IMG/VR virus record: IMGVR_UViG_3300047566_000271
Coordinates: 1-57,671 of that record
Strand: one strand, 5' to 3'
Source: a virus
Length of the DNA stretch: 57,671 bases
Below are positions 7,164 through 26,297 of the stretch, piece after piece. The position numbers were made by a program, and so were the translations under genes. The notes beneath the pieces are model-generated. The model was not told the DNA's origin. It saw only the letters and a list, made by a program, of their open reading frames with translations, and made no database searches. Each line of letters starts with the position of its first letter. Position 1 is the first letter of the stretch.

Positions 7164-7296
7164 TATTGAAGCATATTAGCAGTCAATAATTAACCTGCTG
7201 ATCACAGAATTTAATTATTGAATGTCATATTTCTTCGGTGAGGACAACCTTACAATGGTTGTAGGAGGTTCAACTCCTTAGTATGCTTCAATATGG
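7161..7296 (+). ncRNA. Structured RNA element A: tRNA-like ends with an expanded D region
   Basis: Closed by a perfect 15-bp helix (7161-7175 with 7282-7296). Inside, AGCATAT/GTATGCT could be an acceptor next to a T-arm with loop TTCAACT and an anticodon-like arm with loop TTACAAT. About 69 nt replaces the D-arm; it holds a 10-bp stem CAATAATTAA/TTAATTATTG whose loop (CTGCT) can pair with upstream AGCAG, a possible pseudoknot. No CCA. Identity unknown. Confidence 0.45.
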
Positions 7297-13201: not shown

Positions 13202-13208
13202 GAACAAT

Positions 13209-13281
13209 ACCCCTACCGGCGAATCCGGCGGCAGGACTTCTAATCCAGCTTGCGGAGGTTTGACTCCTTCTAGGGGTGCCA
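13209..13281 (+). tRNA. tRNA-Arg(TCT)
   Basis: Acceptor ACCCCTA/TAGGGGT, anticodon loop CTTCTAA, T-loop TTTGACT, GCCA. Confidence 0.9.
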
Positions 13282-13305
13282 GTAATAAAAAGTGTTTCCT
13301 AATGC

Positions 13306-13334
13306 TTGACAAAATGCAGTAAATAAAGTAATAT
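13306..13334 (+). promoter_or_regulatory. Sigma70-type promoter of the Ro-like module
   Basis: TTGACA (13306-13311), 17-bp spacer, TAATAT (13329-13334). The expected start (about 13341) is the first base or two before RNA unit 1. Confidence 0.7.
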
Positions 13335-13343
13335 AAGTGAAAT

Positions 13344-13400
13344 AGATTCAGTTCAGCAATCAAACCAAATCCAACTGTAAATTGGCATAAAGATGAATCT
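13344..13400 (+). ncRNA. Ro-module RNA unit 1
   Basis: Stem AGATTCA (13344-13350) with TGAATCT (13394-13400). One base after the left strand comes TTCAGCAA (13352-13359). Inside is CCAA-CTGTAAA-TTGG, identical in loop to the tRNA-Tyr anticodon loop. 57 nt in all. Confidence 0.6.
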
Positions 13401-13408
13401 GTAGAAAT

Positions 13409-13466
13409 ATGGGATACATTCAGCAATTAAAAAATCTTTTATTGAAAAAAGAAAAAGATATCCCGT
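13409..13466 (+). ncRNA. Ro-module RNA unit 2
   Basis: Stem ATGGGATA/TATCCCGT (13409-13416 with 13459-13466, one G-T). TTCAGCAA at 13419-13426, exactly 67 nt after unit 1's copy. Inner hairpin TCTTTT...AAAAGA. Confidence 0.55.
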
Positions 13467-13477
13467 TGATTGAGAAA

Positions 13478-13564
13478 TGAATAGGTTCAGCAAATACATG
13501 GGCAGCGAAAGCTGCAACCGTTAGATGTTTATGATCATCTTTAAAAAATCATAACAACTATTCA
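13478..13564 (+). ncRNA. Ro-module RNA unit 3
   Basis: Stem TGAATAG (13478-13484) with CTATTCA (13558-13564). TTCAGCAA at 13486-13493, again 67 nt on. Inner hairpins GCAGC-GAAA-GCTGC (13502-13515) and AGATG...CATCT. It ends a few bases before the ribosome site of the Ro-like gene. Confidence 0.6.
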
Positions 13565-13584
13565 GATGAAAAAAGGTAAATATT

Positions 13585-15003
13585 ATGAATACTTTCGTTA
13601 ATGCTGTTATTAATCAAGAAACTCGTACCACTAATGGTATGCGAGCCCGTGTTGAAACCGCAAATAAGAATGTTGATCTTTTTTTCAAGATCGGCGCATC
13701 CCGCGGTCAAAACATTATTCCTTCTTTTGTGGGTGCTTATGTTGAAGATGCTGAAATTGCATTGCGTATTGCACAATGGGCACGTGATGTTCGCGGTGGC
13801 GCTGGTGAACGTGAAATCTTTCGGCAAATTCTAAAATATCTTGCACAAAATTATCCACAAGATGCTATTCGACTTCTTCATAAAGTTCCTGAAGTGGGTC
13901 GTTGGGACGATCTTCTTGTTTTTGAATCTGGTGATGTTCGTAATGTTGCATTTGATTTGATCAAGAATGCTCTTGATGCTGGTCATGGACTTTGTGCAAA
14001 ATGGATGCCTCGAAAGGGTGAAAAGGCTGTTGAATTGCGTTCATATTTTGGTTGGACTCCAAAATTCTATCGGAAGCGTTTGGTAGAATTGACTAAGGTT
14101 GTTGAAACTCAAATGTGTGCGAATGATTGGGAAAATATCAATTTCAGTCATGTTCCTTCTATTGCAGCAGCACGGTATAAGAAAGCATTCAATCGTCATA
14201 CTCCAAAGTATGCTGAATATGTTGATTCCCTTGTAAAAGGTGAAAAGAATGTAAAAGTGAATGCATCCGCTATTTTTCCTCATGATGTATTGAAGGGTCG
14301 TATTGGTGCTTTTGGTTTTAATCAAACTTACGATAAAGTGGAAAAGGATCTTATTCAAAAACAATGGGAAGCTTTGCCTAACTATGTTGGTAATGCAAAC
14401 ATTCTTCCACTAGTTGACGTTTCTGGATCAATGATTTGTTCTGTTGGTGGAAACAAGAATCTTACTTGTCTTGATGTATCAGTCAGTTTGGGTCTATATC
14501 TAGCTGAAAAGAATAAAGGGAAGTTTAAGGATACGTTCTTGACTTTCTCTGGTTCACCTGAATTGATGCATTTGACCGGTAATATTCACGAAAAAATTGA
14601 TCAGATGATTAGATCAAAATGGAGTATGAATACCGATATCGTTGCTGCATTTAAAAAGATTTTGAATGTAGCGGTTGCTGGTAAAGTTCCACAAAGTGAA
14701 ATGCCTGAAATGCTATTGATTCTTTCAGACATGCAATTTGATTCTTGTACTCAACACGATGACAGTGCAATTGAAATGATTCGTCGGAAGTATGAAGCGA
14801 ATGGTTATAATGCTCCTCGTGTTGTTTTCTGGAATCTACATGCACATGATAACGTGCCTGTGAAATTTAATGAATCTGGTACTGCACTTGTTTCTGGATT
14901 CAGTCCTAGTATTCTTACTTCATTGCTTAAGGGTAATCTGGATAATTTCACACCAGAATATATTATGATGGAAACTGTAATGAAAGATCGATATAGTCTG
15001 TAA
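13585..15003 (+). CDS. Ro60/TROVE-like RNA-binding protein with vWA domain (DUF2828-type)
   Basis: 472 aa. The N-terminal two-thirds is helical and HEAT-like (EDAEIALRIAQWARDVRGGA, then VGRWDDLLVF), as in TROVE/DUF2828 proteins. A C-terminal von Willebrand A domain has the metal site DVSGSM near residue 278 and a later SDMQFD. Ro60 homologues form a ring that binds misfolded RNA ends and Y RNAs. Phage DUF2828 members are known, their function is not. Here it is embedded in the tRNA island with its own promoter and flanked by four shared-motif RNA elements, making an RNA partner likely. Confidence 0.8.
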   Translation: MNTFVNAVINQETRTTNGMRARVETANKNVDLFFKIGASRGQNIIPSFVGAYVEDAEIALRIAQWARDVRGGAGEREIFRQILKYLAQNYPQDAIRLLHKVPEVGRWDDLLVFESGDVRNVAFDLIKNALDAGHGLCAKWMPRKGEKAVELRSYFGWTPKFYRKRLVELTKVVETQMCANDWENINFSHVPSIAAARYKKAFNRHTPKYAEYVDSLVKGEKNVKVNASAIFPHDVLKGRIGAFGFNQTYDKVEKDLIQKQWEALPNYVGNANILPLVDVSGSMICSVGGNKNLTCLDVSVSLGLYLAEKNKGKFKDTFLTFSGSPELMHLTGNIHEKIDQMIRSKWSMNTDIVAAFKKILNVAVAGKVPQSEMPEMLLILSDMQFDSCTQHDDSAIEMIRRKYEANGYNAPRVVFWNLHAHDNVPVKFNESGTALVSGFSPSILTSLLKGNLDNFTPEYIMMETVMKDRYSL

Positions 15004-15011
15004 TTAAAAAT

Positions 15012-15114
15012 AGGATAGGTTCTGCAACTAATTACATTTTAGATAGATATTTGAAAAATAATATCAAAGTGAGTTTCGATTTCTCACTATAAATAAAAAG
15101 TAGAAAACTATCCT
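15012..15114 (+). ncRNA. Ro-module RNA unit 4 (downstream)
   Basis: Stem AGGATAG (15012-15018) with CTATCCT (15108-15114); one base later TTCTGCAA (15020-15027). Inner hairpin GTGAG...CTCAC (15069-15087). It begins 9 nt after the Ro-like stop codon. A TATAAATA (15088-15095), possible late promoter, lies within it. Confidence 0.55.
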
Positions 15115-15122
15115 GATGTATT

Positions 15123-15199
15123 GCCTCTCTGGACAAATTGGTAAAGTCAACTCTCTCAAAAGGAGTAGTTTCTCGGTTCGAATCCGAGGAGAGGTACCA
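15123..15199 (+). tRNA. tRNA-Leu(CAA) with a short variable loop
   Basis: Acceptor GCCTCTC/GAGAGGT, anticodon arm ACTCT-CTCAAAA-GGAGT, T-arm CTCGG-TTCGAAT-CCGAG, ACCA. The variable loop is only 5 nt, while bacterial Leu tRNAs are class II. Confidence 0.83.
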
Positions 15200-15300: not shown

Positions 15301-15651
15301 CTAACTTCTAGTTATTTCTTGAATAATCCTATTAATAGGATTAAAATAATCCACAACTAAATTGAATAGACATTTTGCTTTAATAGTATTATCTTGTGAA
15401 TAATTACATACATAAACATCTAGAGTAAATCCATTTTTTTCTGGCCATGTATGAATAGCTAAATGAGATTCAGCGAGAACAATAGCACCAGTAAATCCAC
15501 CCTCATCAAATTGATGAAATATATAATTTAGTGATGTTAATCTTGATTCCTCAACATATTTCAAGCATAACGCTTGAAAATTTACAAGATTAATGAGTCT
15601 TGTATTTTCAAGACAATCACTAAAATCCCCTATTAAATGAATACCTTGCAT
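15301..15651 (-). CDS. speD: S-adenosylmethionine decarboxylase proenzyme (SpeD)
   Basis: 116 aa, leftward, with its stop abutting tRNA-Ile. LAESHLAIHTWPE carries the self-cleavage pair E61-S62 (the Ser becomes the pyruvoyl group), H67 and later C82 in VYVC, all as in class 1B bacterial enzymes. It decarboxylates SAM to supply aminopropyl groups for spermidine. It is divergent from the oxygenase at 15669 and is the second SpeD-type gene in the island. Confidence 0.9.
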   Translation of the reverse strand: MQGIHLIGDFSDCLENTRLINLVNFQALCLKYVEESRLTSLNYIFHQFDEGGFTGAIVLAESHLAIHTWPEKNGFTLDVYVCNYSQDNTIKAKCLFNLVVDYFNPINRIIQEITRS

Positions 15652-15668
15652 AGAAAATAAAATTATTT

Positions 15669-16274
15669 ATGAATCATATTTTTGATATTTTTCCAACTCC
15701 TGTATATTACTCAAATATTTTCAGGGAATGGACATCCGAGGAAAATCAATTTTTCGAAAAACTCCGTAATATTACTGTGCCCAATCTAGGCAGAAATGAA
15801 CTATCAGATGATAGATTTGTATTAAACAATCCTATCTGTGATAACATTAAAAAATTTATCGAAGCTAATCTACATACTTACATGCAAGAAATCATTAGAC
15901 CTAAGTTTGATGTTAAGTTTCAAATAACACAATCTTGGCTTAATTGGACTTCCGAGGGTCAAGCACACCACAAACATAATCATCCTAATAGTATTGTTTC
16001 GGGTGTTCTTTATATCAATGCATTGAATGATTCGATTAATTTCTATAATGAAACATTCAATCAATTAAGAATACCAGCAGAATCTAATAATCAATGGAAT
16101 TCAGTTACATGGCCATTTTCGGTCAATACTGGTGATCTTCTTATCTTTCCTTCCAGTTTAACACATGGTGTTGATTTTAAGAAAGGATCTAATGTAAGAT
16201 GTAGTCTTGCATTTAATACCTTTGTTAAGGGTACTCTTGGTTCTTATGATGAATCAACACTATTACAGATTTAA
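15669..16274 (+). CDS. 2OG-Fe(II) oxygenase-type protein (TIGR02466-like)
   Basis: 201 aa. FPTPVYY at the start, HHKHNHPNSIVSGVLYIN near residue 98, and DLLIFPSSLTHGV...RCSLAFN near 157-180 follow the 2-oxoglutarate/Fe(II) dioxygenase pattern common in T4-like aquatic phages. The distal His (THGV) and Arg (VRCS) are present; the usual HxD is HNH here. Substrate unknown. Confidence 0.8.
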   Translation: MNHIFDIFPTPVYYSNIFREWTSEENQFFEKLRNITVPNLGRNELSDDRFVLNNPICDNIKKFIEANLHTYMQEIIRPKFDVKFQITQSWLNWTSEGQAHHKHNHPNSIVSGVLYINALNDSINFYNETFNQLRIPAESNNQWNSVTWPFSVNTGDLLIFPSSLTHGVDFKKGSNVRCSLAFNTFVKGTLGSYDESTLLQI

Positions 16275-24968: not shown

Positions 24969-25412
24969 ATGAAGAAAGTTATTGGTATTTTAATGATGCT
25001 TGTTAGTTTTAGTGCTTTTGCTGTTGATGTTGGTGTGAAGGATAATCATGATTATTCTACGCATGATCGTTCTAGTTATGGTATTAGTGTTGGTCAAAAG
25101 TTTGGTGCATATGGTGTAACTGCGAGTTTTGATGATTACACTAAGAATATGAATCAGAAGAAGTTTAGTGTTATTGGTTCATATGATGTTACTAAGTTTG
25201 GTCAAGCTAGTGTTGCTGTAAAGGGTGGTGTTGCTTATCTTGATAATAAGAGAGCACAAGATGGATATGCTGGAGTTGCAGGTGTTGGAGTTAGTTATCC
25301 AGTTATGAATAAGGTTTCTGTTACCGCTGATCTAATGCGTCAATATGGTCAGGACAAGGTACAGAGTTTTGATGGTAATAAAGTTTCTGTTGGTTTGAAG
25401 TATTCTTTCTAA
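24969..25412 (+). CDS. Outer-membrane beta-barrel protein with signal peptide
   Basis: 147 aa, AAAAGGAG ribosome site. MKKVIGILMMLVSFSAFA is a clear Sec signal with cleavage after AFA. Alternating strands follow and the protein ends in GLKYSF, the terminal Phe used by BAM to insert outer-membrane barrels. Proposed eight-stranded barrel of the OmpX/Lom size class. In a phage this may alter receptors or block superinfection (inference). Same strand as the tmRNA and probably co-transcribed with it. Confidence 0.75.
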   Translation: MKKVIGILMMLVSFSAFAVDVGVKDNHDYSTHDRSSYGISVGQKFGAYGVTASFDDYTKNMNQKKFSVIGSYDVTKFGQASVAVKGGVAYLDNKRAQDGYAGVAGVGVSYPVMNKVSVTADLMRQYGQDKVQSFDGNKVSVGLKYSF

Positions 25413-25720
25413 TCAATAGTAGATATTGCTGTATGAAGTGAAGTAAAAAGTATTCTGGACGCGGGTTCGATTCCCGCCGCTTCCACCAGATACATATTCT
25501 GGTCAATCTTCTCGGTGCCAAGCGGCAACGGAGTATGTATCTGATGGGGGCGACAAGGTTTCGACAGGGTAAAGAGTAGCGGATCGGACAGCACGATAGG
25601 CGAAGAACGTAATTCTAGCAAAACTTATAAACGCAAACGACGTTTATTTTGAGGAACTTAAGCTAGCCGCTTAATGTAACTCACGGGGATTCTGAGGTGT
25701 TCCTTGTTATCAAAACACCT
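25413..25720 (+). ncRNA. ssrA: Circularly permuted (two-piece) tmRNA
   Basis: The acceptor half comes first: TTCTGGACGCGGGTTCGATT, T-arm GCGGG-TTCGATT-CCCGC (25461-25477), acceptor CGCTTCC, ACCA to 25488. A 57-nt spacer closed by GATACATA/TATGTATC follows. The coding half starts GGGGGCG (25546-25552), which pairs with the upstream CGCTTCC, then GGTTTCGACAGGG. The tag frame (25634-25675) encodes ANDVYFEELKLAA plus TAA. In one-piece tmRNAs the T-arm half comes after the tag, so this is the permuted order. Ends are approximate. Confidence 0.88.
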
Positions 25721-25736
25721 CTCTTCCATTTTTTAA
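25694..25736 (+). terminator. Probable terminator after the tmRNA
   Basis: GAGGTGTT...AACACCTC, 8-bp stem with a 12-nt loop, then TCTTCCATTTTTT. The T-run is displaced by a few bases, so the hairpin may also belong to the tmRNA 3' structure. Confidence 0.6.
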
Positions 25737-25751
25737 TAATCGGAGATACAA

Positions 25752-26297
25752 TTGTACAAAAAGTTGATTCTCTTGAGTATTGTTTTATCTTTAACTATAC
25801 TATACAGTTTTTATTCGTTATCAGATTTTTTTGTTACTTATCCTTTTAAGGTAGCATATAATCGATTATCGACACAGGCACAAAAGGAAGTTTTGTGTTT
25901 AGCTGATAATATCTATTTTGAATCTGCAACTGAACCTCGTGAAGGACAAATTGCTGTTGCTTATGTCACAATGAATAGAGTAAATTCTGGTATTTTTGAA
26001 AATGATATTTGTGGTGTTGTTAAGCAAAAGATAAATGGTGTATGTCAATTTTCTTGGTGGTGTGAAGATAAACCATATTCAATTTCTAATTCAAAAGTCT
26101 TGACAGAAGGTCGGAACATCGTTTATAATGATGTTATGCAATTAGCCATCTATTTTTATGTTAATCATGAAAAGATGATTGATCCAACAAACGGTGCTTT
26201 ATTTTATCATGCTGATTATGTAAGTCCTGGTTGGAAAAATGTAAAAAAGAGTGTTCAAATAGGTAGACATATTTTTTATCATAAAGTTAAGACATAA
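25752..26297 (+). CDS. SleB-like cell wall hydrolase with N-terminal anchor
   Basis: 181 aa, TTG start after CGGAG. Residues 4-24 form a hydrophobic segment (signal or SAR anchor). The Hydrolase_2 domain follows: LADNIYFESATEPREGQIAV with the catalytic Glu, VTMNRVNSG, and CQFSWWCEDKP. It cleaves peptidoglycan and is the likely endolysin. Confidence 0.85.
   Translation: MYKKLILLSIVLSLTILYSFYSLSDFFVTYPFKVAYNRLSTQAQKEVLCLADNIYFESATEPREGQIAVAYVTMNRVNSGIFENDICGVVKQKINGVCQFSWWCEDKPYSISNSKVLTEGRNIVYNDVMQLAIYFYVNHEKMIDPTNGALFYHADYVSPGWKNVKKSVQIGRHIFYHKVKT

Follow-up and report, generated by a model that had tools for sequence, protein, structure and literature searches.

A widespread phage RNA element with a covarying closing helix beside genes for predicted Ro60-fold proteins

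Introduction

Why should a phage gene for a Ro60-like protein be flanked by four copies of one RNA element? The question is raised by the IMG/VR virus record IMGVR_UViG_3300047566_000271, whose whole length of 57,671 bases is called the window here. In it, a Ro60-like gene (13585-15003) has three such units upstream and one downstream. Ro60 and Y RNA handle misfolded RNA. We show that the four units belong to a large, widespread phage RNA family with strong covariation. We consider it probable, at roughly 80%, that they are Y RNA-like ligands of the phage's own Ro60-type protein, either as small RNAs or as modules in a longer transcript. Chen et al. are said to have reported, in 2014 and in general terms, Y RNAs near Ro genes in phages. 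Phage Y RNAs are already known in kind, and the system in the window would be a variant of them.

The four units of the window

The original prediction, made from the letters of the window, placed four units around the gene, and all four were recovered at those places. The features concerned are as follows.

13344 to 13400, plus strand: unit 1, arms 13344-13350 (AGATTCA) and 13394-13400 (TGAATCT), with TTCAGCAA at 13352-13359
13411 to 13464, plus strand: unit 2 (core), arms 13411-13416 (GGGATA) and 13459-13464 (TATCCC), with TTCAGCAA at 13419-13426
13478 to 13564, plus strand: unit 3, arms 13478-13484 (TGAATAG) and 13558-13564 (CTATTCA), with TTCAGCAA at 13486-13493
13585 to 15003, plus strand: gene for the Ro60-like protein, 472 amino acids, Pfam DUF2828 and DUF7788, PHROG 850 'RNA-binding protein'
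15012 to 15114, plus strand: unit 4, arms 15012-15018 (AGGATAG) and 15108-15114 (CTATCCT), with TTCTGCAA at 15020-15027
13306 to 13334, plus strand: promoter-like site of the sigma-70 type (TTGACA, 17 nucleotides (nt), TAATAT), 10 of 12 matches in a consensus scan

The consensus of the element reads AG-N5, a 3-nt linker, CNGCAA, a variable interior and N5-CT, then G. Its closing helix has 7 bp of free sequence, with an unpaired, near-invariant G just 3' of it. CNGCAA takes the form TTCAGCAA in units 1 to 3 and TTCTGCAA in unit 4. Unit 2 has a 4-nt linker, and its helix lengthens to 8 bp (13409-13466) with one G-T pair. The 3' end of unit 3 lies 20 nt upstream of the start codon of the Ro-like gene, and that of unit 4 lies 8 nt upstream of a tRNA-Leu at 15123. 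As first noticed, the three upstream motifs start exactly 67 nt apart (13352, 13419 and 13486). This spacing is local to the window, and a 67-nt period as a general feature was dropped, as spacings differ in other phages.

Internal hairpins had also been predicted for each unit. Units 2, 3 and 4 fold better than shuffled sequence (z -2.4, -2.6 and -4.5), but unit 1 does not (z 0.3), and strong internal hairpins are not general among the units. The evidence for the element is the covariation of the closing helix and not stability. Transcription had been predicted to start at unit 1. A promoter-like site does precede the unit, and transcription from it would be expected to begin there, but shuffles yield such sites equally often, so its case rests on position.

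At the gathering level, Rfam matched only tRNA and tmRNA models in the window and offered no family for the units. A degenerate tRNA was ruled out as their identity, since neither ARAGORN nor the Rfam tRNA model calls them.

Covariation of the closing helix

We used a register test, which presupposes no helix and counts 7-bp helices at each distance from CNGCAA near Ro-like genes. A helix exactly 3 nt upstream was found at 43 of 98 distinct CNGCAA motifs on the gene strand within 600 bp. With shuffled downstream sequence the mean was 4.3 and the maximum 12 (200 shuffles); the reverse strand gave 2 of 42, and positions inside the gene 4 of 73.

In 31 aligned short units, all seven helix pairs showed double changes, as expected if pairing rather than sequence is kept. 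The covariation score was 0.908; shuffles reached 0.207, and slid partners no more than 0.14. In the same alignment 99.5% of cells were paired, a figure that selection partly accounts for, as helix scans or Rfam hits had supplied these units. We then relied on 119 distinct rows from new loci, which gave 0.697 against 0.176 when shuffled. The second helix pair was G-C in all 119, and both the base after the helix and the CNGCAA motif were nearly fixed. These rows were 99.6% paired, a percentage outweighed by the strand and position counts given below because the alignment was fitted to the covariance model of the unit, R1. Two MAFFT alignments with uneven ends (A1 and A2) were kept out of the statistics, as their 3' arms were misaligned.

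A scan for CNGCAA plus helix found units beside most relatives of the gene, in phages of Listeria, Enterococcus, Klebsiella, Staphylococcus, Campylobacter, Synechococcus and Salmonella (Felix O1-like). Mycobacteriophage Rose5 also has units, with GC-rich helices.

The Ro60-like protein

The gene product has a predicted Ro60 fold, in agreement with the Ro60/TROVE-like identity first proposed for it. Relatives of the gene were taken from viral contigs (41-63% identical, alignment A5) and from 16 regions of named phages; the family is present in at least 681 phage records. An AlphaFold2 model built from 18 aligned relatives, with a predicted local distance difference test score (pLDDT) of 80.8, consists of helical repeats followed by a vWA domain. 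The best four Foldseek matches of this model were all Ro60/TROVE structures. The top ten rows of VIA-align were likewise all Ro60/TROVE structures (Z 17.9 to 10.8), and the next rows were vWA-type domains at 8.8. Matches with Z 17.9-12.5 cover nearly the whole chain of the predicted model, and the Ro60 of Thermus phage phiLo, human Ro60 and Deinococcus Rsr scored 16.9, 14.8 and 12.7, respectively. The protein carries the motif DVSGSM of a metal-ion-dependent adhesion site (MIDAS, DxSxS) at residues 278-283, and D278, S280 and S282 are invariant across 24 aligned relatives.

The predicted protein thus shares helical repeats and a vWA domain with MIDAS with Ro60/Rsr/TROVE proteins (PDB 9kop, 9l5y, 9nen, 2nvo). 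Unlike them, its sequence belongs to Pfam DUF2828/DUF7788 and not to TROVE: a scan at E <= 0.01 returned only these two families and did not match PF05731. Sequence similarity alone was weak (E 0.0095). Genes of the same family have been annotated by others as 'Ro-like RNA binding protein', for example gene 53 of Rose5 and a gene of Ochrobactrum phage OC. In the 16 named-phage records examined, the neighbouring RNA elements are unannotated.

Association of the units with the gene

R1 was applied, as an independent check, to 79 new loci selected by protein similarity only. It gave 137 matches in 73 of these loci, and all 137 were on the gene strand. The original prediction had proposed a search of this kind beside other phage DUF2828 genes, where a lack of related elements would have told against it, and such elements were found in most places. 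In 61 of the 79, a gap of 11-34 nt (median 13, counting three flanking bases) separates the 3' end of an upstream unit from the start codon. The units show two features of Y RNAs, paired 5' and 3' ends and proximity to a Ro60-type gene. Within the window, units 2, 3 and 4, which were outside the training set, were matched at E 5.8e-10, 0.013 and 0.0063. Unit 1 reached E 9.0e-9 as a member of that set.

Matches were present in 23 of 24 records of phages with the Ro-like gene, including Pseudomonas phage Milchi, which was outside training. KVP40, picked blindly as a control, proved to have both gene and unit, which scored 158 bits and 49.5 bits (E 1.4e-9), respectively. In the controls T4, phiKZ, SPO1 and S-PM2 the gene was absent and no unit was convincing, the best being in T4 (19.9 bits, E 0.047). 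A bacterial collection was searched with a profile from the closer alignment A5; relatives from bacterial assemblies and from the record of a Bacillus plasmid have units as well. Thermus phage phiLo, the sole TROVE-type phage tested, gave neither an R1 match nor a Y-like Rfam match, which at n=1 is suggestive only. Vibrio phage D480, Serratia phage BF, Aeromonas phage phiAS5, Ochrobactrum phage OC and Acinetobacter phage ME3 had no unit beside the gene and candidate units elsewhere.

Dispersed units of 55-65 nt are numerous in some phages (L053-L059 and G007 in our set), tens of kilobases from the Ro gene; G007:103131-119482 holds five strong R1 matches over 16 kb. The T4 stable RNAs rnaC and rnaD (L069, 909-1172) lie in a tRNA cluster, with no Ro-like gene and no match to the unit model.

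Long units and YrlA

Longer units in relatives hold, in order, a T-arm (GGTTCGANTCC), an acceptor stem capped by a small loop, and a D-arm. They enclose a circularly permuted tRNA, as bacterial YrlA Y RNAs do. Double changes were seen in 15 of 24 predicted pairs (seven sequences). The Rfam YrlA model (RF02553) matched some of them at 44.9, 40.1, 34.2 and 32.5 bits, all below its gathering cut-off of 69. YrlA, a Y RNA, has a tRNA-like domain that tRNA enzymes modify. Its complex with Rsr acts with PNPase, and in bacteria Ro60 with Y RNA changes the specificity of PNPase (PMC8394870). The phage system resembles bacterial Y RNAs in that a Ro60-type gene is encoded alongside, a stem joins the ends, and relatives have a permuted tRNA-like body.

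Likeness to Class I RNAs of dictyostelids

With relaxed E-values, the Rfam model of Class I RNA (RF01414), for which Dictyostelium RNAs were the sole source, gave weak end-to-end matches to unit 1 (20.9 bits, full length) and unit 2 (20.0 bits). In 10 of 22 phage records its top hit and the Ro gene were no more than 1 kb apart, compared with 0.29 records expected (P 5e-14). The best phage score was 40.4 bits (E 3e-8 for its genome), under the curated cut-off of 41.5. About half of the R1 training units had been located via RF01414, so that overlap between R1 and RF01414 hits is partly circular; the near-gene test is free of this circularity.

Class I RNAs, reported only from dictyostelids (PMC7919456), begin with AAG and end with CUGU. 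The short stem that joins their two ends is maintained by compensatory changes; its 5' arm is followed by an 11-nt motif, and the rest of the molecule varies. The single tested amoebal partner is Rnp1A, a protein with an RNA recognition motif (PMC7919456, Kjellin et al. 2021). The phage units are alike in size (median 56 nt, compared with about 60 nt), in an end-joining stem with compensatory change, in an A(A)G start and CUGU-like end, in a variable interior, and apparently in a motif ending in CAGCAA directly after the 5' arm. In the Class I motif CCUUACAGCAA, T3, C6, C9, A10 and A11 are nearly fixed, and in phage CNGCAA the C, C, A and A are 98-100% fixed. The linker is one nt shorter in most phage units, which leaves the placement of T3 uncertain. 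Class I RNAs have a Dictyostelium upstream sequence element (DUSE) promoter and come from dictyostelids, whereas the units are phage sequences beside a Ro-like gene.

The phage RNAs and Class I RNAs may owe this likeness to common descent or to convergence. Our tentative suggestion, to which we give slightly less than even odds, is that they form one RNA family or share one recognition module, in which case Class I RNAs would be Y RNAs binding an amoebal Ro60-like (DUF2828-type) protein. No link between Class I RNA and Ro60 was found in the literature searched. That literature, which does not extend to the original reports on Y RNAs (Chen 2014; Sim 2018, 2020; Wang 2018), also makes no mention of the CNGCAA module tied to a DUF2828-type Ro, its spread, its start-proximal copy or its match to Class I RNA.

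Interpretation and alternatives

Two roles had been put forward for the locus, a Ro-like protein with its own small-RNA set or an autoregulated leader. Both find computational support in the predicted fold and the co-travelling RNA family. They are compatible, as the units come in several copies, of which one typically lies against the ribosome-binding site of the Ro gene. In the mechanism that we propose, each unit would present one recognition end, made of the 7-bp helix with its G-C second pair and unpaired 3' G, the short linker and CNGCAA. The interior would be interchangeable. In some units it is short and plain, in others it has hairpins of its own, and relatives can have a circularly permuted tRNA there. 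The phage would thereby form a Ro60 ribonucleoprotein (RNP) with several Y RNA-like ligands, alike in their recognition end but with different bodies.

The start-proximal unit is probably an autoregulatory leader as well, since its kept position beside the ribosome-binding site (61 of 79 loci) suggests feedback on the protein's own synthesis. Surplus Ro-like protein bound to its leader unit would hinder translation and so limit its own production. Downstream, the RNAs would most likely serve in RNA surveillance or tether a nuclease, as happens in bacterial Ro60 RNPs. The window holds about 30 tRNAs and a tmRNA, and a phage that remodels host RNA and brings so many tRNAs could put a Ro60 RNP to work in RNA surveillance or decay. 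That the units are transcribed as separate RNAs, bind the protein, regulate its synthesis and play this downstream role is what we infer.

Several observations weigh against reading the units as Y RNA-like ligands. Six of the 79 loci had no R1 match, some of them cut close to the gene start (e.g. L100), and a large number of units are tens of kilobases away from the Ro gene. The closing module, a 7-bp helix with CNGCAA, is unlike the stem of bacterial YrlA. The window units themselves have no tRNA-like domain, and no YrlA match was found in 13202-15122 at E <= 5.

The units could instead be purely cis-acting: a repeated protein-binding or processing site in the mRNA would control the Ro gene and the genes around it, and no free small RNA would be made. 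This would account for the position of one unit next to the ribosome-binding site at 61 of 79 loci, shared by unit 3 of the window, and for every R1 match being on the gene strand. Yet other units stand in arrays, follow the gene, lie among tRNAs or are tens of kilobases off, and the tRNA-like body of the long units would be superfluous in a simple operator; we regard this explanation as unlikely. We give still less credit to the idea that the units serve another RNA-binding factor or an RNase, for instance in the maturation of tRNA-island transcripts, with the Ro-like gene merely adjacent. The units do stand within tRNA islands with tRNA-like spacing, and unit 4 ends just before a tRNA, but they accompany the DUF2828 gene in phages and hosts of widely differing kinds and are unconvincing in T4, which is rich in tRNAs and lacks the gene.

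Chance could produce short helices and an 8-nt word where DNA is AT-rich, and would fit a unit 1 no more stable than shuffled sequence. It fails before the register test, the covariation, the strand bias of 137 to 0 and the GC-rich helices of Rose5; the covariation together with the independent loci already refutes it. The reading that the units are Y RNA-like ligands of the Ro60-type protein is the one we prefer.

Other features of the region

A weak tRNA-like gene (22.6 bits, 13209-13278), uncalled by ARAGORN, lies between a tRNA-Leu and unit 1. T-loop-like GGTTC(A/G)A sequences at 7266 and 7693, outside called tRNAs, may mark degenerate or unusual tRNAs. The tRNA island also holds an S-adenosylmethionine decarboxylase gene (15301-15651, minus strand), followed by a 2-oxoglutarate-Fe(II) (2OG-Fe(II)) oxygenase gene (15669-16274). 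The tmRNA gene at 25381-25765 best matches the Rfam permuted tmRNA family (139.9 bits), and its tag is ANDVYFEELKLAA.

Significance

A gene of a DUF family becomes part of a candidate RNP system, one whose RNA partner can be searched for and whose recognition motif is clear. This candidate system reaches phages that are easy to handle in the laboratory, such as KVP40, Felix O1-like phages, and phages of Staphylococcus and Mycobacterium, and in it the recognition end is separated from a swappable body, which may be plain, a hairpin or a tRNA mimic. If the amoebal parallel is true, it would offer a testable class of partner for the orphan Class I RNAs and would join two fields.
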